Position numbers and translations under genes: made by a program
In this document: positions 34,808-63,355 of the stretch, in pieces
Layout of the letters: each line of letters opens with the position of its first letter
Numbering within the stretch: the stretch's first letter is position 1
The notes under the pieces: generated by a model
Databases searched by the model: none
What the model was told of the DNA's origin: nothing
Seen by the model: the letters and a program-made list of their open reading frames with translations, nothing else
Assembly: GCA_031213475.1 (NCBI GenBank)
Contig: JARUPZ010000002.1
Coordinates: forward strand, 6,767,049 to 6,831,048
Reading direction: 5' to 3'
DNA from: Nereocystis luetkeana
Lineage: Eukaryota > Sar > Phaeophyceae > Laminariales > Laminariaceae
Length of the DNA stretch: 64,000 nt

Positions 34808-37800
34808 TCATCAAAAACGCGCATTTGAAACGGGGGGACAGTCGAGCAAGTACTGCCTGTTCAACCGCTGGAAGAGGCACCCGCCCATCAACGACTCCCT
34901 CGCCATTCTGACCCGACGCTACCTGGCCATCGCCCTCGTCATTCACGTCATGGTTTCCCTTCAATTCTACGCGGGATGGCCGTTTGACGGGCTGTGCGAG
35001 ACGGACGAGGTGCGCGTTTTTCCTCCCTCCCACCCCCTATTGAAAACGCCTTTCGATCTCTGCATGCTTGCTGGTTTTTCCCAGTTGAGTTTATACTACC
35101 GTTGATTATTTACTGCCGTTGATTTTTTGCCGTTCTGTTGTTTTTTCCGCTCCGCTCGTGAGTGCACACCAGGCTGTTCAAGTTTTTTTTTCACTGTTGA
35201 TTTTTCAACGTTGTATTGTTTGGTGCGCTCATGAGTTGATTTTTCAATGTTGTATTGTTTGGTGCGCTCATGAGTTGATTTTTCAAATGTTGTATTGTTT
35301 GGTGCGCTCATGAGTTGATTTTTCAAATGTTGTATTGTTTGGTGCGCTCATGAGTTGATTTTTCAAATGTTGTATTGTTTGGTGCGCTCATGAGTTGATT
35401 TTTCAAATGTTGTATTGTTTGGTGCGCTCATGAGTTGATTTTTCAATGTTGTATTGTTTGGTGCGCTCAGGAGTTGATTTTTCAATGTTGTATTGTTTGG
35501 TGCGCTCATGAGTTGATTTTTCAAATGCTGTATTGTTTGGTGCGCTCATGAGTTGATTTTTCAATGTTGTATTGTTTGGTGCGCTCGTGAGCGCAACGAG
35601 TCGGCCGGTCCCAGGGGCGGGTCTGTGTAAGCTCGAGCGCGCTTTGATATGTTTCGTGATGGCTGATACGTTCTCAAGGACACCATTGGGGTTTATGAAG
35701 TATGTTGTGAAGCCTTTTTCAAGGATGGCGTTTGTTAGCGAGCGCCCTATTTTTCGGTGTGATCACAACTGCGGCTGTGTGTCTTTCTGTGCGATGACAC
35801 CGATCGAGGGCGAGTGAAGAGTTTTGGCTCGTGTTCATGGAAGCGAGGAGGGCGGGGTGGAATGGAAGGGTTGCCGCCTTCCTCGTAGCGGCTTTTCCCA
35901 CCTGCGCTCTTGTCTTGTTGCTCTCAAGCGCGATAGCTGTCGACCAGCGCGATTTCGATGAATCAAACATGGGGTCAAGACACCATTGCCGCTCGTCTAC
36001 ATACTTTATGTATTTGCTCTCGTGAGGCCTCTTCCCCGTTGGCTCCCCCGTTGTCGGCTTGCCACAGTGTCTTGGCTGCTATCGCTGCCCGCGTCTTCCC
36101 CTCTCTTATATGTATACGATTTGTACCCTGTCTGTCTGCTTTCCCTTCATCTGCGTGGCAGGACGTGGTCCTAGGCTTCCGGGACGAGGCGAGCCTCAAC
36201 GTGACCACGGGCGACTTCAACCTCTCTAGGCGAGCCTTCGTTCTCATCTCTGCTCGGTACCTGTATGATTGAAGTCGACGTAGTGTGGGAGACGGGGTGG
36301 GGGTGGGATGGGGTGGGAGTGGGATGGGGGTGTGTGGGTTTTGTGCGAGTGCGTTTTTTGCCGTTCGCCATCCCATCGAAAGAGATAGACGCGCGAGGCG
36401 TGGACGATTTGTTTCCGGTCCGTGCCGTTCGTTGTGTAGGTCCTCTTGGTTTTCTTTGTTCTATTGGCAGTGCCCGCTTTTTGTGGTGTGGTTTAGAAAC
36501 GATCGACTTTTTCCCGCCGTTTTTGCGTGAGCGCAACGGTTGCTACTTGAAAGCAAAGGCTTCCACCCTGTGTGGTGCGTTGCAAGTTGCAAGTGTTGAC
36601 GTGACTGCTCCGACCACAATTGACTGTGAAAGCGGGGATGGCCGGTGGATTCTTTTTTGCTGGAGCTGCAAACAACCGCAAGGGCTCCTTACCGGTAGTA
36701 GTGGCTTTTGAGGTGCCGAGTCAGTTTTGTCGTGTACGTCGGCACCAACACGTAGACCCCCGTCGCGCGTCCCGGACGCTTGACCGCTTGCGCACGCTCG
36801 CAACGTGCAAGGCGCGTTGGAGCCCCATGCAGGTGCTCTGTTTCGCGTTCCGCCCGCAGGGTTATAGCCTTTTTTTGCGGCTGCAAAACGTATCCCACAC
36901 TACTGCTGTACGTAGTTCAAAGTACTTTTCCCCCCCGATGCATGCGTGCAGCAGCTCTGAAGGGGGTGTGACTATTTTAGGGCAAACCGCAGTCTCGTTA
37001 AGGGGAGAAACCACTCTTAATACATATTTAATTAGTCCCCAAAACGGGACTGCAGTCCAAAAGGGGGTTGAAGGTGGACGCGCACCACTCACCGCAATCT
37101 CTATTCTATTCCCAGATTGGTGCACGAGGGATTACTGGAGTCTTTAAAGGGCCCTTCCTTCTCCGCGCCGTCAGGGACAGATGGTCGACGATCTGGCAAC
37201 TGCCATCTCGTGGGTGTGTTCTACTCTTAATATGTACCAGGTATTCGACATGAGCCTTCCCTCTTTCCCCCTCATTGCCGGCCGTGCTGTAACCCGCAGC
37301 ATCTATCCGCGGGCTGGGGATGCGGTGTACGAGAGCTGCGACCAGGACTCGCCCCTGGTCTGGGGCGAGTTGCCGCAGGACTGGATGCCGGACGATCAGC
37401 TGATTACGGTCTGGGTGTTCAGGTGACAACGGAGGGAGGGAGGCAGGGAGGGAGGGAGCGAGGGCGAGAAGAGGGTGGGGAGGGGGGATAATTTGTGTAT
37501 TTGGGTTTTTTGCACGCATCAGGTGTGCCTCGGGCGGTTTTCGCTCGTTGAGCGCTCGTTTGGCGCCCATGTGCTGAATGGAGACAGGTATGCGGGGTAA
37601 CTGGAGGTGCGCGTGGAAAGAGTATGCATGTTTCACGCGGCGAGTCATACGTTCCGATTACGAGAGGTATCATGTGCTACAGCACTCACAGTAGGTATGC
37701 GTTGGAGCGGAAGGCTAACCCTCGTGGGAGTTCAGAGGGGGAAACAAAATGACGATAAAAAGTGACGATGATTACAGCGACGACCACCGAACCGCTGCGT

Positions 37801-42870: not shown

Positions 42871-45800
42871 GAGGCCGAGATGGTGCGCGAATACTTCGAA
42901 GTATATAGGAATTCACCCATGTGAATCTGCAATCTGCATTTTTTTTTCTTTCTCGTTTCTTGACGTTTCAGTCAAGTCTCATTATTGTGCAGGGATCGAA
43001 ATGGCTACAGTATCCGATTGAGAAAAAAGACCTTTCGTGCCCCCAGTTCGTTTATGAACGGGTCGTGTGCTTGAACTTGAAAAAAACTCGTGGCTATGTA
43101 ATCAGATCTGGACGCGTGGTTTGAAGCCCCCATCATCCAATCGATGCGCTGCAGCATTGCAGAGCTCGCCATATGAGATTGCCATAAGCAGGGGTATTTT
43201 CCGTCTTGGAAGGAGCACATCGTTCTGCACCATATGGTTCAATCCACGGGCTCACTTTTTGTTTGTTTTCTTGGGGTCTACGCTGTGCTGTGTCAAACAA
43301 CGAACAAATAAATGTCGTTGACGATGCTGCCACAAAATTGAGAGGATAAAAACGGCCCTTCTTACCTTCCGTATACCCTGGTATATAGCTAATGCGGCGT
43401 TTATTTGTGGGGATGGTGTGGTTGTTGTTTTGCTCGTGTCATGTAGTTGTGACGGGCTCCAGATTACAGTGCGTTTTTGCCTCTGGTATGATAGGAAGTA
43501 CTATGCTGTAGTTCGGGTTGATTTCATGCCTGGTGGGTTTTGGTGATCCGGTTTCGTTTGTCGATACAGAACAATCGACCGGCAGTCAGTCGCTCCATCC
43601 AGTCAGTGGTCGTGGCCTTCCCGCGTCGGTAAAGTTAAGTTAGTTTCGTGAACATGTTATGATCAAGGTCGGGACACTTTGTATCCCTGGACAGGTTTGC
43701 TATTTAAGCCGATACTCGTTGGTACTCACATGTGATGTTTGCTTAGAGATGGAAGAATAGCAGCTTTATTTTTTCCCTTCGTGCACGCGGAGACTGAGAG
43801 CTAAGCTCGCGCCTCACAGGGAAAATCCCTGATTTTTCATCTAAGATACGCCTCCCAAGTACTACAAATACGATCCCAAAACTTGAACCCAGGTAATTAC
43901 CGGGCTTTCAGCCTCATTCAAGGCATTATCATAACACTAGCCCACTCTGATGAGCCGTATATACAGAATTATGGGAAAATTCATGGAAACCCCGATTCCA
44001 CGAACTAGAATATGAGCCGAAGATGCAGCTCCTCGAAACCCACTCCTACACCTCTGAACGGCGAGGCAACGAAGTCGACGAGGTACGTCAAAAAAAGAGA
44101 AAGAAAAGAAGGCCCAGTCCTAAGGGGCAGGAATAAGTCGTCAACGAGAGCCATCGCCATGCCACCCGCAAAACGGGGGGGGGGGGGGCGAGGAACTGTC
44201 TATGGAAAAGCGAAAAGTGAATACCAATAACGAGAAGAAAAATAACGCGGAGCACGCCAAGAACCACCTAAACCCCAGCCCACAACTCTGGAAACGTGTC
44301 ATGTGCCACAAATGAGTGGCCCGATTACCCAGACCAGCAGGTTTAGGCTGTCGTCCCTAATTGCGGGGCTTTCAGCCTCATTCAAGGCAGTAAAATAGGA
44401 AACAGCTGCCATCACATCAATCACCGCAACTGAAGCTCAAGTTTTTACTCTTAATCATAGACTTATCAACCCGCTCCGAATGTTTCTTCGTTACGATTGG
44501 TTTCACATGCTTCCCCTTGTTTTATTTTTCTGACATCACCTTTCCTTTCTTCCAGCTCAACGACAGTAAGTAACAGTGGGAGGCTTTGTCCCCTTACTTA
44601 CATTACTGGTGGTACGACCGCTGCTGCGCCAGCGGGGCCCTTCTTATACGCACCCACGTACACCCACCCACGCCCACCCATAATCCATGAGCCACCTGTC
44701 GACCTCTCCCCACCCACCCACCCACCTACCAACCCACCCACCCACGAACACACCCACGATATACAGCAGCCGCAGCAGCCACTACTTGCAGCAACGACGG
44801 GTATGTGTTACCCACATACACACCACCCGCACCCACGTGCCGACACGAGTCAACGAGAGAAGAAAGGGCTGATTAAGTCTTCTCACGATAAAAAAATAAG
44901 CCACGAGCCGTATTGGAGAGGGGGAGGTGAACCTGAATGCTTTGTAGCCCCGGATCTGAGTTACGACTATTAATGCTATAATAACATGTACCAGGGTATA
45001 ATACATACCTGGTAGGAGGGAGAGAGAAAATACGGGCGAAACTTTTTTTTTCTTCTCGATCATCACTTTTACGTTCCAGCCTATAACTCGCAAAGGTTTA
45101 CCCTGAGTGGTCTTCTGGGCGAGCCGTGGTCACAGGTGTCGTCCCTCCCCCCCCCCCGGTACGTGCCTATTCTGTGAGAAGAAACAACAAGAAAAAACGC
45201 CCGTACTTTTTATAGGTGCTTGCCTCTGTTGTTGTGGTATCCCCTCATCAACATGGAGGAGGCGGCGTTGTTGTAGCTCATTACCACTATTATTAGTATT
45301 AATAATACTATGTCCGGGTACATGCCATGTCCTCGTCGGTCTGAGTCTTGCAGAATACACCAGTCAGGGTGATCAGGCAAGCGACAAATCGTAATGATGC
45401 CAAACGCCCGCCCAAACCCCGAAACTTTTTGAGCATATTCCGTGTAGCAGCAGCAATTTCTGGGAAACTCAACTCCAGGACCTTTTGAGTGTGGCCCTGC
45501 CCTGCATGGTGCATGGCCTTCAAAATCAACTTGAACAATTACTTCAAATTCAACCTCAAATCTCTGGTTCTTCGTTCTCCTGTGGCAGCGAAGAGGCCTG
45601 GGTGTGTGTGTTTTCGACCAATCTTTTTCTCGTGTGGTGGGAATGTCAGCGGAAAGTGATGAATGAACGCGGGACAAAATGAACGAGCGCGCCACACGCT
45701 GTCAATTGTGACGGGTAGGTAGCGGCATCTGATTGCTGCAGGGGCGGGTTTTGGGCAAGCGACTCGCGCGCCAGGGCTGAACAGCAGTATGCATTGCCGT

Positions 45801-46339
45801 GCTGCTGTTGTCTTCACCGCTCGTTTTTGGGTTGGATAGCTTTTTTAGATATTTTTTACCCGTAAAAACGGTAGAAGAATCGAAAAAAATCTGTGTGAAA
45901 GAAAGAACAATGAGTGACCAGCGCACACGACACAGCTTGTATCCAAGGCAACAACGACAGTTATTGACATGATTTTTCGTTGAACAGCTGGCACGTACCG
46001 TCTCGAGCCCTCAAGAGGGGAGTGCCGCGCACTACACGCGCACACCCTTGTAGCCAGCTGGCCAAACGACGAAACGACGAAACCAATGATGATATAAACT
46101 ACCAGAGCAATGGGAATGACATTCCCATTGTACCAGAGGTATAAACTACCAGGTACCTGGTACCTGGTATAAACTTACCGGAGTACAACCAACATGGAGA
46201 GGCATTATCATATCGGGGTAATAGTATCCATCCTGTTCGTTGAAGTGGCAGCGCTGCTTCCTGCTTGCTGCTGCTTGCTGCCTGCTCCCTACTGCCCCAG
46301 CCCGGCTTACCTGACCACCTCGTTATCTACCCACAACAA
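42871..46339. other. Spacer between channel and lipocalin-like genes
   Basis: About 3.5 kb. It holds the SINE-like repeat near 43.9 kb and its second piece near 44.37 kb, a (CCCA)n-rich stretch at 44650-44760, and a C run at 45149-45158. A CCAGGTACCTGG palindrome cluster (46140-46175) lies about 170 bases before the start of the lipocalin-like gene. No supported gene was found. The open frame at 44497-44973 is low-complexity Pro/Thr/His and is not called. Confidence 0.55.
43858..43960 (-). repeat. tRNA-derived SINE-like repeat
   Basis: On the minus strand the sequence reads GTGGGCTAGTGTTATGATAA, then GCCTTGAATGAGGC, and GGGTTCAAGTTTTGGG. The first and last resemble Pol III A and B boxes, and the middle forms an anticodon-like hairpin. 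The hairpin part (GGGCTTTCAGCCTCATTCAA on the plus strand) recurs at about 44366-44389. It does not fold as a functional tRNA. Confidence 0.45.
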
Positions 46340-49300
46340 ATGTGGTGGTATTCCAAGGTCGTAGTGGGTCTCATATTTCACGCTGCCGTTGCGAACGCCT
46401 TCTCGCGATGCCTCGGTCGACTGCCACGATCGCCTTCTGACGGCACTGGAACTGCTTCTCGACGTCGGTCGACCAACATGATGAGCGCTCCTCTGCCCGG
46501 GTTGTTCGGAAGGAAAGCGCCGCTCGGACTGGGCTCGTGGCGAGTCGAGTCAGTGGTGGATAGCCAGGAGCCGAATAGCATGTTCGTTTTCCTGTTTGAC
46601 GACGGATCTGGTGAGGGGTGGGAGGTGTTCCCAGCAGGCAGAATATCATTGATTGTTTTTGTGTTTGGTTGTGCCTTCTTTCTTCCGCGTCTCCTCGGGT
46701 TCTGCTCCGAGAACGCGACTTCGCCTCTTGTGATACACGACAGACGACGTACGGTAGATATGTACGAGTATACTGGTGCTTTGTACCAGATACCTGGTGG
46801 TACAAGTTACGAATTCAATCGAGTACACATACGTACATTGTTCGCATTGTATGAGCTACAGCAACAGCAATATTGCCGTACGCTGGCGCGAAGATAACAC
46901 ACACCACAACGGATAACGTTTGGAGGTTATTTTGCGTACCTCAATAAAAATAGCAGCACCGGGTATGCTGTCGCGCGAGGGAGGTAACGACTCCCCGGTG
47001 ACAGGAGCTTCACGCACGGGAGCCTCGCAAGCTTGGGGGGTGAACGTGGGGGTGTGGTAACAAGGGGGAGCGGTCACGGGGGTGCGTGATACCTAAATCT
47101 CGCTTAGGATAAGGATCGTGCACAGACACCATCAGGGGGTATTATACTGGCACATACCGAAACACACCGACACGAACTCATCCGCAGCAACACCGTCAAG
47201 GTCAAGTCAAGCGCGGTCGTAGGTGCTTGAGGTGCGGCATGACAGTATCAGCAGGAGCAGCAGAAGACGTACAACCGTTCTCTATATTTGTTTGCTGTTG
47301 ATATCAATAGTGGTTTGCGCAATGTCTTCAGATACCATGGTACCTGGTATGATCATAGAACTACTTACGGATAATTCACTCTCTGAGCGTGCTCGGTTGG
47401 TACATCCCTGGCCTCTCAGTGCTCCCGCTTCGAAACCGCCTCCCTTCATTACTTGCCGGACCTTTCCAGCGGGTCGTTGTTTTTTCCATCTCTCTTGGCA
47501 CTCTGGGTCCTTTCTTCTTCTGTCGTTACGTGCACACCGAGCACGGCACCGCGGGTGAGCCCGGCGCCGTCGCGGGTGTCAGCGGGTGCTGGCGGGTAGA
47601 GGGGGGGTTGCAAGGAGCGCGGTCGCCGCTTTCGTGCCTAGGCGTCGCGTGTGCCTCGAGACACGAGGGATGCATGAACGGGCTCTGTCTGGCCTCCATT
47701 TGTGATTTTTGATAGAGTATGCACGGGTTATAAGAGTCGTTCGGGATTGCAAGATAATATTCAAGCGGTGCTTATTTTTGCGACCATGCTGAAGTTGAAA
47801 GAGGGAGCTGCGCAGTTTGAGCACCAACGTTATCGAGCTGGCGAACGACGGCCACGGTGAGCACCGGGCTTCACGCGAGGCGGGCGACGGGGCTGATTGT
47901 GGCAGAGAGTGAGAAAAGCTTTAACCGGACCGGAGCGGTAGCGAGGGGCGGGCGGCGTACGAGGCTGAGAGAGAAGCTCTTCTTCGATTTTTTAATTTTC
48001 TTCTTTTTGACCGGATGTAAGGTGTTCCGATCAGGCAGAAAACTATTACACGAGAGGGGACGGGTTGTTTTTTCTTTCCGAATTTTTCGGCTTCATTTTC
48101 TTTGTTTTTGCTGTGTTGCTGCGCCGTGCTGTGCTTTCTCTTTCTTCGTACATACGAGTACAGACACAGCATATCAAAAGAAGAAAATAAGTACCGTACC
48201 TGGGGTATGTACGTACGTACGACATCCGCGACGCGAAGCGTATGTGGCGTCCGAGCTGTTTCTTCCTGAAGCATGGCGGCGGGGCTCTTGACATTATCAA
48301 GTCACCAGTTTGCAACTACAACAATCATAAAACAAACTTAATTTAATCATGGACCTCTGTCCGCTTCGCATCATTTGATGTACTTTTTTCCTTCCTGAGC
48401 GAGCGTAGCGGGCGGCGTAGGCCGCCCGCGGAGCGAAGCTCCTTGTAGATTCACACCAGGGTGGACGTTGTGGTCGCTTGAATGCCTTGTCTAACTTCCG
48501 AATATTGTTGCATATTGCGCGCAAGGCTGACGCCTACTCGTCTGTCTTGCACACCCCACCCGCCGCCGCCGCCGCCGCCGCCATTGCCGCCGCGGCTCCA
48601 TAGTGCACACCGCGGTGAGCGGAGCAGACACCGCCGAGGGCCAGCACGACGACAAGGCTGGGCGATGGCGCGTGTCGGGCGACGAATTCTCCCTCACGGT
48701 GGACAGACGTTCCAAGTCCAGATTGCTCGAAGATCTGAGGTGCGCCGCTGTGTATGTGCACGGCTGGTGGAACAGCAGGGAGATCAGACGAGGCGTCAAA
48801 CAAAGTGGAAGATCACGCGGGAGAGATTGCGACTATTAAGGCACAGATAATGCCACCATAGTATTGAAAACCCTGGGGGTGGGTCATATTGTACCACCGT
48901 GTCTGTATCTACCGTGGTAGGCCAACAATGATGTTTACGCTGAATACAAGAACGAAAAAGGATGCACGCCTGGTCCTAATTATTACTTTTTTTGCGTGTT
49001 TGGGGCTAACTCTCAAACTAAAAATTGGGAGACGCATGCCATATGTACATTCACAATATCGAGTGCGCGTTTCCGCGCAAGAAAGTATGGAAAATAACGT
49101 ATTTCTTGTCTGTACGTATAACCATCGTGTGTCTTACGCACAAAGGCAAGAAGTAAAGTTGGGTGCGTGGAGTGGAGACTAAACGCGTGTATACGCTCGT
49201 CCGGCGTTATCGCCATATGTTGTCTTTCCCCACCATCCGTTCACCCCCACTTGTTTTTTTGCGCCCTCCGGCGAACCGGTAAACATGGAAGCTTGAGCTT

Positions 49301-49986
49301 TTACCACAATTCCAAATAAAAAAATCCCCCCCCCCCCCCCCCCCCCCCCTCCCCCCGCCCGTTCTGGCCAGGTACGTCGGCGTGCTGAAAAAGTTCAGCT
49401 CGTTCATCGAGGGGAGCGTGATCGAGGGGCAAATGGATCCCGCTGTCGTGGGAAAGTTCAAGATGACGCCTGTCGTCTCGTCGATGGCGTCGGAGCTGAA
49501 GAAAGCCGCCGAGGCTAATGATTCGGTCAGTATTTTTTTGTACGCCCTGGTCTTCCAGGAGAGTTTTGCGCGTGTTTTTCCACCCCCCCCCCCCCCCCCC
49601 CCCTCCCGGTCGGGTGAAATGTTGACGTTTAGCACCTCTCGGACAGATAGATGATCGATCCCTAGTTGATGGTATAGGTATTTTAGGGGGGATTTTATTC
49701 TTGATGTGCATGCTCTGGCTCAAGTCGCTGGGGTGGGAGCCGTGTGCAACCCGCATTGATCTGCTGCCGAAGGACGTGTTTCCTCTGGGTTGGATCTATG
49801 GGATGACAGTACAAATTCCTACGACACGACAATATCGTAACGGCAGGTTAGTGAGGATCTGTAGATGATCTATCTGTAGACGTATAGATTTGACATGATC
49901 TGTCCGGCGCGTGCATTGTTTTTGTTCGTGAGATGCTCCTGTCCGTGCTCTCTCATAGCAGTTTGTTGTTGGTGTTGGTGGTGTCG

Positions 49987-50021
<35 letters not shown>

Positions 50022-53000
50022 GCTTGTTGTTGTTGCTTGTTGTTGTTGTTGTGGTTGTTGTTGTTGTTGTTGCTGCTGTTGTTGTTGTCGTCGTTGTTGT
50101 TGTTCTCACGTTGACTCATGTCCAACATATTGAGCCCATGGTCACAAGACAGCTCCAGCCGTAATTCGTCCTGTGTGACGCCCGTATATATCGCGATTCA
50201 GTGGACCGTCGATTGTGTATTTTGGCGGGTCTTGTGCCTGGTGTTTTTCGTTCCGAGGAGACGTCAAAGCTTTTTTGCTATTTTTCAAATGAAAGCTGCA
50301 ATACAGCAGCAGTTGATTAGCTAGCAGTCTCATTTCAAGTGTTTTTTTCCCCCCAAAGCGGAGGGCAGTTCGCTACTTGATGCAAAAAGTACCCTGGTCT
50401 CCTTTTAGGTTTGTTTTATTTTGTCCCTGAAAACGTGATTTTGCGAAACTTATTGTAGTCTATTTTCAAGTAGTTTGTTTCTCAAAACGTGATTTTGAGC
50501 GGTGCAGTTATAATCGCTGTCAGAAGGGGCTAATGGAGATGTTAACAACCTCAGGAGTATCCTGCTTGCGTTGTGTGTATTTGGTCGTCCGACAGCCCCC
50601 CCGTCCGTTTCTCGAGCGACTTTCTGAATCCTAACCATAACCCTGCACGCATATATAGGACAGATCATGATCTATAAATCATCGTCTAGATCATCATTTA
50701 GATCATCTAGGTCCCAAGTTTTGCGTATAGGGAGTTAGTTATGCAAGAACCGTGTGAAGTACAGATCCATCCCACCTAACGCAAACATTTGCGCAAGAGC
50801 GGTATTTTGTACATGTATCCCCTCCCGACAAAACATCGTATTATAACTCAATCGCACAGATCGTTGTGTGAGGTACGTACATATCACGGATATATCTGCG
50901 CTCGGAAAGATTTGTTCATAGGTCACTCATAGATCATGCATAGATCATTCATAGACCATTCACAGATCATTCATAGACCCTTCATACCTGGTATAGATTA
51001 TTCAATGAGGATTCTGACCTGCCCGCTGTGTGTGTAAATTTAACCCTGGCCTTGGCATCTGCAGAGCAAATACATCGTCCCCAAGTACCCGAAGTCGGCG
51101 ATCGCGGGGCAGTGGGTGCTGATGTGGCAGGACACGGGGGCTGTGTTCCGACTGAATCTCACAGACGACGGCCAGTTCGAGAGCGTCGAAGGGCTGGGCT
51201 CCGGCCAGCTGGGGGGGAGATGGAACACCTGGGATGCTGACAGGTTTGTTGGTTTGTTTCTGACGAGATGTTCGGGGGCTTACGGTTGTTGTTATTGGTG
51301 GTGGTGTGTCGGTATTGTTGTTGGTGTGCTGGTGTTGCTGTTGTTCGTGTTGTTTGGTGCTGATTTCTGTATTTTACAGCGTGCTGCACCCCACCTGCGC
51401 GAGCGTCTGGGGTTTGTACGTACTGAGTGGCGTGTCTTCTCGCCAAGCCAAACGTTGCACGCGCAATATGTCTTCTCGCCAAGCCAAACGTTGCACGCGC
51501 AGTATCACGTCTACGAGACACAGCCACTCGCCCACTGTTTGCCGTGGCAGCAGGTTCGTAGAAAGTAACGCCACCCACGCGTTTCACTCCTATTTTTGTA
51601 GTTGCAGTATATATATATATGGTATTTGTTTCGTGTCGCTGGTTTTAAATTGTTTTTATTAACAGTACCAGGTATTGTTTTTTTTTGTCCCCTGTCCACC
51701 CTCGCCTTGCCTTTTCAGGATGTACATGACGGTGGTGCGTACCAAGAGCCATGGCGTGCAGATGAACGGGGATACTATGTTTTGGGGCACCGAGATAGTC
51801 GGGGAGCCTGATGCGGAGGTGAGACTGGGACGCTATATACGGTCTGCGGTCTTGGTAATGCAGCAGGGATGGAGCTCCCCCCCATTCCCCCCCCCCCCCC
51901 ATGCGCTGATCGCGTTGATTCCGGTGATAACGTCCAGGTGTCACTGGTAGTCGTGTGTGTAGGTATGATCAACTGCTGCGGGTATTATTCTTAATAGTGA
52001 CATGGTGCTCGTGGTGTCTTCTCTCAGGCGGCGGCGGCGCAACTGCATCGTGCACGCCGACGGGCTTGTTTCAAATCTATAACGCCTGCAACCACAAACA
52101 AACCCTAAAGTATTTGTCCTCTGCAGTAACGGTTCCCTGCCCCCCCCCCCCCTCCCTTCCCCCCCCCCCCCCCCCCCTTCTTTCCTGTTCTTCAAAACGT
52201 ATCCTTCCTCCCCGTCCCTCCCGCGGGCAGATCCCCCTGAAAATCAGCGGCTACGTCATGTATGGTTTCCTTGAGGTAAGCGATGCCACGGGCTTATGAC
52301 GCCCCCCTCCCCCCCCTTCCCCCCCCGCCCTCTCCCCCCCTGGACAGATTCCCGTGAAAATAAGTGGGTACGTCATGTATGGCTTTCATGAGGTAAGCGA
52401 TGCCACGTTCTCATGCCGTAAAATCCGGCTGGTGCTGTATACGGTCGGATACGGCCGACGGCAGCTGCCCGTCTTCATTCAGTTCGTTCGTGCCCAGCAT
52501 TGATTTTTTTCAGGCTCTTCGTATTCTGACTATTACGGGAGACCATATTAATAGTAAGTAGGACCCAATAGTGTTACTAAAAAAACGTAAATACATACCT
52601 GGTAGGTTTTTGTGTGTACCGTGGGTCCTATATATAATATGGTCCCCCCGCAATAGAAAAGGTACTCTGTGCTGTGTGCTTGGAGTGAGGAGGTTCTTCG
52701 AGTCGAGTGCCCCGTGGTTTGGGCATGAATAGCTGAAACGTATGTGTGAATTATGCCTGAGAAGGCAGCGGAGCGATCACAGATAGGGTATACCAGGTAT
52801 TTCAACTATTAATACGAGTCCGGACGCTAAAAAAAAATGGGTTCGTATGTCTTGGGGTGTTCTTGCGCACTTCAATCGAAATGTCTCGGAGGAGAGTCGG
52901 GAGCTGCCATTGCCGCACCAAAAGCTCTGCTCATATCACCCGGGCGCCGTCATTCCAGTGGCCACGCAACTCAGCCGCTCCACGTACGTACGCATGTATG

Positions 53001-53168
53001 TAAACCATACCTACCAGCCTTGTTTATAAGCATGTACACCCCACGTGAATGAACACTGCTCCTTGTCCCTTGTCCTTTGTGCGCTTTTGTACCGAGCAGC
53101 CGACATGCATCGGGCGCTTCATCATGCGACGCAGCCAGGAACGGAATGAGGGCGATGGTACGGCTTGA
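46340..53168 (+). CDS. Plastid-targeted protein with two lipocalin-like domains
   Basis: Exons: 46340-46610, 48604-48739, 49372-49525, 51065-51243, 51719-51818, 52231-52275 or 52348-52392, and 53100-53168. With one of the duplicate exons the CDS is 954 bases (317 aa plus stop). Residues 1-20, MWWYSKVVVGLIFHAAVANA, form a signal peptide. F21 after A-N-A and the following Ser/Arg/Thr-rich stretch match the bipartite plastid presequence of heterokonts. Domain 1 (about 66-175) reads GSWRVESVVD, FVFLFDDGS, KAGRWRVSGDEFSLTVDRR and a helical segment. Domain 2 (about 197-317) reads AIAGQWVLMWQDTGAVFRLN, LGGRWNTWDADRMYMTVVRT, DTMFWGTEIVG, KISGYVMYGF and GRFIMRR. A repeated order G-x-W, D-D-G, G-R-W-x and a strand suggests tandem lipocalin/calycin-type barrels binding a small lipophilic ligand or pigment. 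That function is inferred. The last acceptor is a tandem AG (53096 and 53099). Confidence 0.85.
47440..48446 (+). repeat. Repeat R2 of about 1 kb, copy 1
   Basis: It fills much of intron 1 of the lipocalin-like gene. Its sequence from GGTCCTTTCTTCTTC through GAGCACGGCACCGCGGG, GCGAGCCCGG-like words, TTCCGATCAGGCAGAAAA and CTCTTGACATTATCAAGT to a strong palindrome GGGCGGCGTAGGCCGCCC, ending CCTTGT, reappears inverted at 59998-61030. No conserved frame is seen. A hairpin near one end recalls Helitron 3' ends, but the terminal bases do not clearly fit, so the class is open. Confidence 0.8.
48560..48592 (+). repeat. (CCG)n tract in a 3' splice region
   Basis: About ten CCG/GCC triplets lie between the C-rich tract and the TAG acceptor (48601-48603) of lipocalin exon 2. 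Confidence 0.85.
49327..49350 (+). repeat. Poly-C tract before lipocalin exon 3
   Basis: About 23 C in a row, a pure pyrimidine tract shortly upstream of the acceptor at 49371. Another C run of about 20 lies just after this exon (49583-49602). Confidence 0.9.
49966..50103 (+). repeat. (GTT)n microsatellite
   Basis: About 140 bases of GTT/GCT triplets with a few interruptions in intron 3 of the lipocalin-like gene. On the other strand it is (AAC)n, like the CAA runs elsewhere. Confidence 0.9.
51446..51508 (+). repeat. Tandem duplication of a 35-bp word
   Basis: CTTCTCGCCAAGCCAAACGT, then TGCACGCGCA, occurs twice head to tail in intron 4 of the lipocalin-like gene. Confidence 0.9.
52231..52275 (+). 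other. Duplicate exon 6a of the lipocalin-like gene
   Basis: 45 bases, phase 0 at both ends, coding IPLKISGYVMYGFLE. Acceptor GCGGGCAG and donor GTAAGC. It encodes the same strand as exon 6b 72 bases downstream. Confidence 0.85.
52348..52392 (+). other. Duplicate exon 6b of the lipocalin-like gene
   Basis: 45 bases, phase 0 at both ends, coding IPVKISGYVMYGFHE. Acceptor CTGGACAG after a C-rich tract and donor GTAAGC. Codon-level differences from exon 6a are mostly silent (ATC/ATT, AAA-ATC/AAA-ATA, GGC/GGG, GGT/GGC), with L to V and L to H as the amino-acid changes. This pattern suggests both copies were kept under selection. Confidence 0.85.
52531..52655 (+). mobile_element. MITE copy B, TATTACGGGGG-ended family
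   Basis: Begins TATTACGGGAGACCATATTA and ends ATGGTCCCCCCGCAATA. The core has GTAGGACCCAATAGTGTTAC and TTTTTGTGTGTACCGTGGGT. It lies in intron 6 of the lipocalin-like gene. Confidence 0.75.
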
Positions 53169-56074
53169 TCCACACAGATGGCGCGAGGGCAGCTTGCTGG
53201 CCGCGGAGAGCACTGGGCCGCCCTTGGGCCTCACGCACGCAATGCGCGCGAGTACCGTGGGGTGTCCCTCAGTTTTTGCGGGACGGGCCGGCTTTTGTAC
53301 GGGACGGTTTTGCGGGACGAGGTTCGGGTCGTATATTTGCGTTGACCCGACTCCCGTTGGAGGGTATGTACTGTGCTCGCATACTGCTGGGGCAGGGAGT
53401 TGACTCAGAAGGCGGAGGTGGAGCGGGAAGAAGGCCCCTCTGAGGGCACCATGTGAATATAAGGCTTTTTGGCACGGGGGCTGGGGGGGCGGGGCGAAGT
53501 GGGTTGTACAGAGTGGAGGCAATGGTATGAGTAACAAGTAAATGCAGACAGATACCGTCGTTGCGGCTATTCGAAGTCGGAAGGGGTAGCCAGACAGACA
53601 AGACATTCTTGGCAGTTCGCAGTGAGGCTTCTCGACGTTTTTTGTTGTTGCTCCTCTGGGGCGTGTGATAAATGTCGCCGAGTACGATTGGCAGTTTCTC
53701 GAACACGAGTTACTTACAATGGCACCGGATGCCCAGGTAGAATACAGCTACTATTGCTGCCGCTATCAGTGTGGCGCCAATCGCTTCCCTCGAGTATAAT
53801 CCAGCTATCGTACGAGATCGAAGCATCACACCGAGCTTGCAACGATGGGTTTTGAAAAAAAAAAACGAGCTGTCATCTCCGTTTTTGTGTTTTTTCAAAT
53901 ATGGGCAAGGGTCATACCTGGTGTGTGATTTCATCGGCCAGACGGGCGGAAGGGCAGACAGGAAGTGACCGTCCGACGTAGATACCCCCGCTGGCCCTAG
54001 GAATTGCACGTCGTGCTTGTTTCGGTTACATACAGATGGGAACGAGATTGTCGAGACCGATCGGTGTACATTTTTGGGAAGTCGGTGGAGAGGGGGAGAC
54101 CCGTTGCTTTATTGACGAAAAATCGCGTCACTTTTGCCGACGACGGAGAAGTAAATGTTATCTGCGCGTGTACTGCTGCATGATCGTACCGAGGTGCAAT
54201 AATACTACTGTAGGTGTATCTATCCATGAGTATCCATGATCATAGGGGTGTGTGAGGTGGGCAGTGGATTTTAATTTGATGCCCCCCAACCCCAACCGTT
54301 CCCGCCCGCATGTTACGTAGAAGGAAGTGTCCAGGATTTTTGCCAAACGCTGAGAGTTGAGCGTGCTTTGACGTGATGGGCCGTTGTAGATGAGTGCAGG
54401 AGTGATGTGATAGCAGGCCATGCCAAAAGCGGGCGGGAGTAATGATTTTATTAATAAGAGACAAGATATAGGGAGATGAATTTTCCAGGATTTTTCGGTC
54501 GGCAAGCTTTTTTTGTTTTCATACCGGTACGTACTTCGAAGTATAATACTGTTAGGGCTGGGCACTGGCTGAGCCAGTCAATATCAATTATACTGTCGTC
54601 AAAATCAATGGATGTACTGGATTGCCGCAGCTTGCTGGCCGAGCGAAGCGAGTAACGCCAAGCGAAGCGAGGCAGCGGAGATTAGCTCGGCCAATCGCCC
54701 CCCCCCCGGCTGGAGAGTGAGGGCCCCCCGCTAGAGGCGCCGCCGAAGGCCAAAAAAAAAACGCGCTACCGCTTTATTTGCTATCGTAGACGGGGCTCAA
54801 AACTGCATCGGCCGTGGGTGATTACGGCCATCGACACCGGAAAAAATCGACCATAAAATTGAGAGCAATGCACCCCCCGAAACGCATTTCGGTGGGTTCC
54901 GTACTATACTATGGCGTATCTCTTGGACGTACGTGATATAAAACTACTCGCGAATACGCACTATACTGGCCGGGGCTGTCAGTGGATTGCTACTGCCAGT
55001 AAATACTGTGCCAGTGCCCTGCCTTACAGTTTATAATATGGTGACAGGGATTGCTGAGGAGTGAAGACACGCACGTACGTATGCGAGTCTTCACAGAGAA
55101 ACTGAATGCCTCGTGCACAGGGGCCGCTGCGAATCCAGGGAAGGCATTATTTAAGGCGTGCGTTAGGCGCCATATAGTGCTTTTACTGCGAATGGAGGGA
55201 AGGCAGATCGCTCACGTTGAGAAATGCTTGCTGGGCAGGGATGGGCTGAATTGCTTCAAATTATGGCTGTGTCGGTGCATCTCCACGCGTAGGCACGAAC
55301 TATATTATGTATATCATCAGTGACTCCGCTGAGGGCGGCTATTGCAGTGTGACGCCCTTCAACAGTGCGCCAAAACGTTAGCACTTCAAGCGGCACGAGC
55401 AAATAGTGATGTGTAAATTCTGCAAGCCTACTTACTGGCCTGTCTCGTGTGTGGCTGTTCCACACCTACCTCGTTAAGTTCCCTTTTCCCGTTGTTCCAG
55501 CTTTGAACGGAGCAAGCAGTGGCTTGATTCACAACTGCATCGTTTGGCGGACGCATGTGTAACCTACTTTATTTTCAGACTGCAGCGCGTGGTCCCTGAC
55601 AGAGCGAAGCGTTGCCCCGCCTCAGGCCACACCGAGCAACCACTGATCGCCAGGACTTACTTCAAACTAAACCCCCTTTACATGCGCATCCGTCATTCTG
55701 AGGGTGATATTCGTAAGCTCAGGGCCATGAGCCAAGATAGCAAGGATGCACATGCATGTGATGCACATACATGTGTATCCGGTTTTTTGTTAGTGGCCTT
55801 CCAACAGGAGAGAGACAGGACAGAGTGACCATATGAGAGCAGCCCAGGCGCCACGTATAAACACAAACGTCAAGAGTCGAAACACTCAAGAAAATGTCAA
55901 TAGCCCGAACCGACACGTAACGTCAAATGCTGAATAGCCACCTTCGAATAGATAGACGAAAAAAAAAAAAAAAAAAAGAGTAGTTGGCATTGCATTTGAC
56001 ACGAACTACTTGAAAATACGTTTTTTTGCAGTACATGGAGTAGTTAAAAGAGGGTTTCTTGAAAAAAAGAAGGT
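53169..56074. other. Convergent spacer: lipocalin-like and MTHFR-like genes
   Basis: 2.9 kb between two stop codons. No recognisable gene. It contains a GC-rich stretch open on both strands (53080-53440), C and A runs (54701-54708, 55959-55976) and an imperfect palindrome around GAGCGAAGCGAG/GCGAAGCGAGGC at 54636-54690. The open frame 54158-54565 (minus) shows no domain. Confidence 0.5.
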
Positions 56075-63127: not shown

Positions 63128-63237
63128 TATTACGGGGGGGCATAGTAAATAGGACCAAATATTGGTAGTAAAAATAGAGAAACATATAGATTTATGTGCG
63201 CATCATAGGTCCTGTTTACTGTGGTCCCCCGTAAGAG
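63128..63237 (+). mobile_element. MITE copy C, TATTACGGGGG-ended family
   Basis: Starts TATTACGGGGGGGCATAGTA and ends GTGGTCCCCCGTAAGA. The core AATAGGACCAAATATTGGTA is shared with copy D, which follows 9 bases later in the same orientation. Confidence 0.8.
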
Positions 63238-63246
63238 GAAAATTAA

Positions 63247-63355
63247 TATTACGGGGGGCCATAGTAATTAGGACCAAATATTGTTAGTAAAAATAGCGAA
63301 ATATATAGGTTTTTGTGTGCACCGTAGGTCCTATTTAATATGGTCCCCCGTAATA
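63247..63355 (+). mobile_element. MITE copy D, TATTACGGGGG-ended family
   Basis: 109 bp. Starts TATTACGGGGGGCCATAGTA and ends TATGGTCCCCCGTAATA, which is a near-perfect inverted end. It is the best-preserved copy of the four. Confidence 0.85.

Follow-up and report, generated by a model that had tools for sequence, protein, structure and literature searches.

On contig JARUPZ010000002.1 of the brown alga Nereocystis luetkeana (assembly GCA_031213475.1), a predicted gene carries two near-identical exons of 45 nt in direct succession, here called 6a and 6b, and the question raised by this locus is how they are used: as alternatives of which each transcript takes one, as two units included together, as dispensable cassettes, or as one working exon with a spent copy beside it. 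An earlier note on the window (the whole stretch of 64,000 nt that was analysed, contig positions 6,767,049 to 6,831,048) had proposed mutually exclusive use. We suggest that 6a and 6b are indeed tandem-duplicated mutually exclusive exons of a single-copy gene, with exclusion probably brought about by a distant branch point, a reading drawn from the genome sequence to which we assign a probability of about 0.65.

The gene model (Table 1) was built from open reading frames and splice dinucleotides. All of its joins preserve the frame, its introns run from GT to AG, and the predicted protein has 317 residues if a single exon 6 is used. At the N-terminus, a hydrophobic stretch (46340-46420) followed by ANAF/SR is taken by us to resemble the secondary-plastid targeting signal of algae; the remainder consists of two related halves that share 28% identity (MAFFT). 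Other features of the gene are a tandem acceptor at 53094-53099 (gagcag/CCG) before exon 7, where use of 53097 could add a glutamine; a 36-nt tandem duplication (97% identical) at 51433-51504 in the intron between exons 4 and 5; and an intron after 6b that has no in-frame stop over some 35 codons (52393-52500) and would, if retained, give a different C-terminus.

Table 1. Predicted features of the twin-exon gene in window coordinates (a slash in a sequence marks an exon border)
Feature	Position	Strand	Basis or remark
Gene model, whole coding region	46340..53168	+	open frames, GT..AG borders, phase
Exon e1	46340-46610	+	open frame and splice dinucleotides (predicted)
Exon e2	48604-48739	+	open frame and splice dinucleotides (predicted)
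Exon e3	49372-49525	+	open frame and splice dinucleotides (predicted)
Exon e4	51065-51243	+	open frame and splice dinucleotides (predicted)
Exon 5, upstream partner of 6a/6b	51719-51818	+	phase 0 end, GCGGAG/gtgaga
Candidate 6a branch points, adenines -37 to -34 and -30	52194..52201	+	weak consensus, best score 4.5
Exon 6a, IPLKISGYVMYGFLE	52231-52275	+	cag/ATC..GAG/gtaagc
Intron 6a-6b, 72 nt	52276..52347	+	adenines at +3, 4, 8, 13, 21, 24, 69, 71 only; 3' half a C-rich tract
A+21 and A+24 (TTATGAC), candidate distant 6b branch point	52296..52299	+	inferred
Exon 6b, IPVKISGYVMYGFHE	52348-52392	+	cag/ATT..GAG/gtaagc
Exon 7, last coding exon, PTCIGRFIMRR..., common to both forms	53100-53168	+	

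The coordinates, equal length (45 + 45 nt) and shared phase (0) that the earlier note gave to the two exons are correct, as are its claims that each copy has its own acceptor and GTAAGC donor (CAG precedes and GTAAGC follows both) and that the intron between them measures 72 nt. Among the 45 bases there are 8 differences, 13 of 15 residues agree, the replacements being L/V and L/H, and a repeat finder reports an 85-nt direct repeat at this place (81% identical, period 117). They are adjacent internal exons of like length, the same phase and homologous sequence, and similar length, shared phase, homology and adjacent internal position are the criteria for such pairs given in PMC3228551. A degenerate DNA pattern for GYVMYGF found exactly two matches in the genome (465 Mb, 1987 contigs), namely 6a and 6b, while its reversed control found none in the same 465 Mb; no third copy of the exon was found within 45001-56000.

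The pair was further compared with what the window yields by chance, using a scan of both strands for tandem pairs bordered by AG..GT or by one of three control dinucleotide borders. At more than 10% divergence there were 22 hits, and amino-acid identity exceeded base identity in three, all of them at this locus (AG..GT borders at two lengths, and a control frame shifted by one base). Under a looser criterion, which asked for less than 97% identity and for more amino-acid than base identity, six plus-strand AG..GT hits passed, two of them this pair and four of them near-identical repeats near 35275-35550, against one control hit on the plus strand (GA..TG) and five on the minus strand (AC..GA). 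Since amino-acid identity above base identity at more than 10% divergence occurs solely at this locus, the twin exons are more than a chance resemblance. Near-identical tandem copies of a unit of about 40 nt (LIFQMLYCL...) lie between AG and GT at 35236-35550, an array which looks like a young tandem repeat.

From the predominance of silent differences the earlier note had argued that both copies were conserved. Six of the 8 base differences are silent, as claimed, and the divergence of 6a and 6b amounts to dN 0.058 and dS 1.55, the latter saturated and imprecise. Simulations were started from exon 6a and run to 8 differences under three transition biases, with 6000 runs each. When both copies evolved neutrally, a silent pattern as strong as the observed one arose in 0.07-0.15% of runs; the figure was 0.9-1.5% when one copy was neutral and the other took silent changes only, at a quarter of the rate. 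The tandem repeat 63153/63272 (63153-63349, 78 nt, 86% identical), a neutral-looking contrast, has 1 silent and 9 replacement codons. Given the rarity of the silent bias in simulation, the argument of the note holds up, and both exon copies look intact and selected, in a small test of 15 codons only. These figures bear on the reading in which a single exon is meaningfully used and its twin is left over from an old duplication, as a relic or as a copy that is seldom spliced. It draws some strength from the distant branch point that 6b would require (see below) and from the first half of the protein, which has M at the site of the L/H replacement; the L of 6a is closer to this, and 6b is possibly drifting. 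Against it stand the rarity of the silent bias when one copy is neutral and the donors, acceptors and frames, which are intact in both copies, and we consider this reading unlikely.

Kinesin introns served as a local yardstick for the intron between the twin exons. A search of the genome for the kinesin family gave 132 matches, 126 of which were used and yielded 46 adjacent exon pairs with a smallest estimated intron of 150 nt; 40 of these 46 introns were retrieved, borders were found for 39 of the 40, and 34 of the 39 lay above a score cut-off of our own choosing. The shortest of the 34 well-bounded introns has 198 nt, against 72 nt here, and the five below the cut-off were assigned lengths of 135, 219, 336, 566 and 1594 nt. 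Introns elsewhere in the twin-exon gene measure 412-1993 nt. Kinesin matches longer than the profile span might conceal short introns; five of them, a set without L020-L022, were inspected and look like in-frame insertions. The kinesin motor domains L018 and L023 have long glycine-rich in-frame insertions, and one kinesin exon is found twice with the same score, on a large contig and on a small one (G000, C12:2427651-2427749 and C435:2654-2752), which may reflect a haplotig or a duplication in the assembly. The kinesin donor consensus is GTRAG, and the GTAAG of both twin-exon donors is close to it.

Branch points are nearly always adenines, and beyond +24 the 72-nt intron has adenines only at +69 and +71, at the acceptor. 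With no usable adenine past +24, an ordinary branch point for 6b would therefore lie at most 24 nt from the 6a donor; a branch point other than adenine is conceivable. Among the adenines, A+24 within TTATGAC is the strongest candidate, with a score of 6.0 on a consensus scale with weights chosen by us. In 16 of the 34 kinesin introns the best site does as well or better. The candidates of 6a itself score 4.5 or less, and the branch motifs tested are weak in kinesin introns (yTnAy is present in 18 of 34). At the corresponding position +24, the intron after 6b has a C. The distance from A+24 to the 6b acceptor is 49 nt, and in the kinesin introns, if adenines closer than 15 nt to the acceptor are disregarded, the nearest one lies 15-69 nt away from it (49 nt or more in 4 of 34). 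Because 49 nt is within the range of this genome, 6b should be usable from exon 5. Judged from the adenine positions, the predicted 6b branch point falls inside the distance of about 50 nt from the upstream donor that marks exclusion of the OGDH type.

We propose the following mechanism for this geometry. The branch point of 6b would be A+24 (or A+21), and U1 on the 6a donor together with U2 on so close a branch point would be unable to build one spliceosome; the joining of 6a to 6b would be barred because the two sites are only about 24 nt apart. Transcripts could then run from exon 5 to 6a, by way of a branch point near -34 to -37, and on to exon 7, or from exon 5 to 6b by way of the distant branch point, and the resulting proteins would differ at just two sites, L/V and L/H, in a 15-residue segment of the second half. 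The argument that a short intron sterically prevents double inclusion thereby becomes a specific branch-point mechanism, while the steric limit itself comes from animals and is applied to this genome by analogy.

The same geometry weighs against the reading in which both exons are included together and the protein carries a 15-residue duplication. Double inclusion would preserve the frame, and because the frame is kept, nothing downstream would police it; moreover, PMC11378527 describes tandem LRR exons in the ROCO genes of brown algae that are joined in this manner. However, it would have to remove a 72-nt intron with no adenine from +25 to +68, in a genome where the 34 kinesin introns have at least 198 nt, and the first half of the protein contains this kind of segment only once: local scores against this half are 49 for the form that skips exon 6, 47 for the 6a form, 43 for the 6b form and 39 for the double form, which aligns worse. 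As the skipped form scores like the 6a form, this comparison counts against the double form only, and we regard joint inclusion as improbable.

The score of the skipped form, 49 against 47 for the 6a form, could also be cited in favor of ordinary cassette exons, with skipping, single and occasional double inclusion but no strict exclusion, as could the fact that every junction is in phase 0. The best BLASTP stretch between the two halves of the protein (ISGYVMYGFLEPTCIGRFIM against IEGSVIEGQMDPAVVGKFKM, E 6e-4) nevertheless crosses the junction of 6a and exon 7, and for this reason the exon 6 segment seems to be part of the domain; the local score of the 6a form against the first half was equalled by 2 of 500 shuffles. 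The closeness of the GTAAG donors to the kinesin consensus likewise speaks against cassette use, which we consider quite improbable. Competing RNA pairing between a docking site and selectors, the latter being the identical 15 nt that follow the donors (GTAAGCGATGCCACG after both exons, with just these two matches in the genome), is hardly credible as the means of exclusion, since in eight duplex tests over introns 4 to 7 no selector pairing better than shuffles was found (at least 10% of shuffled elements pair equally well, lowest value 0.10) and the bases past GTAAG agree at 17 of 21 positions, which is not significantly more than third codon positions do (9 of 15; p 0.16). An incompatibility of U2 and U12 splice sites was rejected as well: compared by eye with the U12 consensus, the donors gtgaga, gtaagc and gtaagc and their AG acceptors are of the ordinary U2 type.

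Mutually exclusive use is thus the reading we prefer, favored by the silent-biased divergence, the 72-nt intron and the layout of adenines within it; exclusivity itself is likely yet unproven. The base rate is modest: PMC5740500 reports that exclusive use was verified for 1,399 of 6,541 comparable candidate exons in humans, and it notes that many similar neighboring exons are not exclusive. A wider proposal, which we put forward only tentatively, is that brown algae share the branch-point-proximity switch of vertebrate OGDH, and that the locus holds an old, selected exon pair providing a regulated leucine/histidine swap in a protein that is probably plastid-targeted.

The earlier note had also placed the alternative segment in a β-strand of a barrel, and this part of its account was not confirmed. 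No Pfam model reached its cut-off for the protein (the lipocalin-like GH43_C scored 14.8 against 23.4 bits, and DUF1894 15.1 against 25), the PDB search gave one match, to a synthetic construct (E 0.62), and a two-row profile had no PDB match at E 1 or less. With Pfam below cut-off and no related PDB structure found, the barrel is a guess, and a lipocalin-like fold is possible. No further gene resembling this one emerged from the genome search. Outside the window's own exons it returned two weak hits on C1, L012 (E 0.004) and L014 (E 0.74), which were rejected as paralogs and are regarded as chance because the open frames there read as what we take to be copia-type reverse transcriptase. Relatives were confirmed neither in viral contigs (3 pattern matches, 0 confirmed) nor in prokaryote genomes (46 pattern matches, 0 confirmed), collections that are presumably not meant for algal nuclear genomes, so that little is said by these null results. 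As for other families, the EsV-1-7 cysteine family is greatly expanded in this genome, as is typical for brown algae: it was matched by 150 of 150 scored candidates here (1713 candidates) and by none in 14 control genomes.

Pairs of exclusive exons are familiar from animals, and reports from other lineages seem to be few. The closest likeness is to vertebrate OGDH, as presented in the relevant passages of PMC7969005: human exons 4a and 4b are exclusive by virtue of branch points 25-41 nt from the donor, with a proposed limit of about 50 nt. Both loci have tandem exons with downstream branch points near the upstream donor (25-41 nt in human, 24 or 21 nt predicted here) and, ahead of the acceptor, a long pyrimidine tract free of AG. 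They differ in that the OGDH mechanism was shown by lariat mapping and mutation, whereas the one proposed here is inferred; in the tract, which is U-rich in mammalian OGDH and C-rich here; and in gene, protein and lineage, both exons having 45 bases in the alga. In a human survey, such proximity of branch point and donor was seen in 57 (9%) of 629 clusters (PMC5740500).

The multicellular alga Volvox carteri has equal-length tandem exons in cyn23, two exons of 106 nt that are exclusive, but this is a green alga and a cyclophilin-like gene, exclusive use was verified by RT-PCR, the isoforms differ at 13 residues, and 106 nt, unlike 45, is not a multiple of three (details as given in the passages of PMC4378016 on this gene). 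Within the brown algae, the LRR exons of ROCO genes are likewise tandem, homologous and of the same phase, and they are alternatively spliced; they differ in being many repeat-unit exons used in varied combinations, and the term 'mutually exclusive' has no occurrence in the main text of PMC11378527. Full-length transcriptomes of a diatom and of a dinoflagellate did not detect mutually exclusive exons, as far as the splicing results quoted from these reports go (PMC8307304, PMC9618608), and the passages returned by the open-access full-text literature held no report of such exons from a brown alga.

The mechanism class considered here, exclusive exons of the OGDH type, is known; none was found described for this lineage. 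If confirmed, the pair would show that a lineage which became multicellular independently can keep exons exclusive through branch-point proximity, and it would offer a compact test piece of 162 bases for the smallest distance between donor and branch point that a stramenopile spliceosome accepts.
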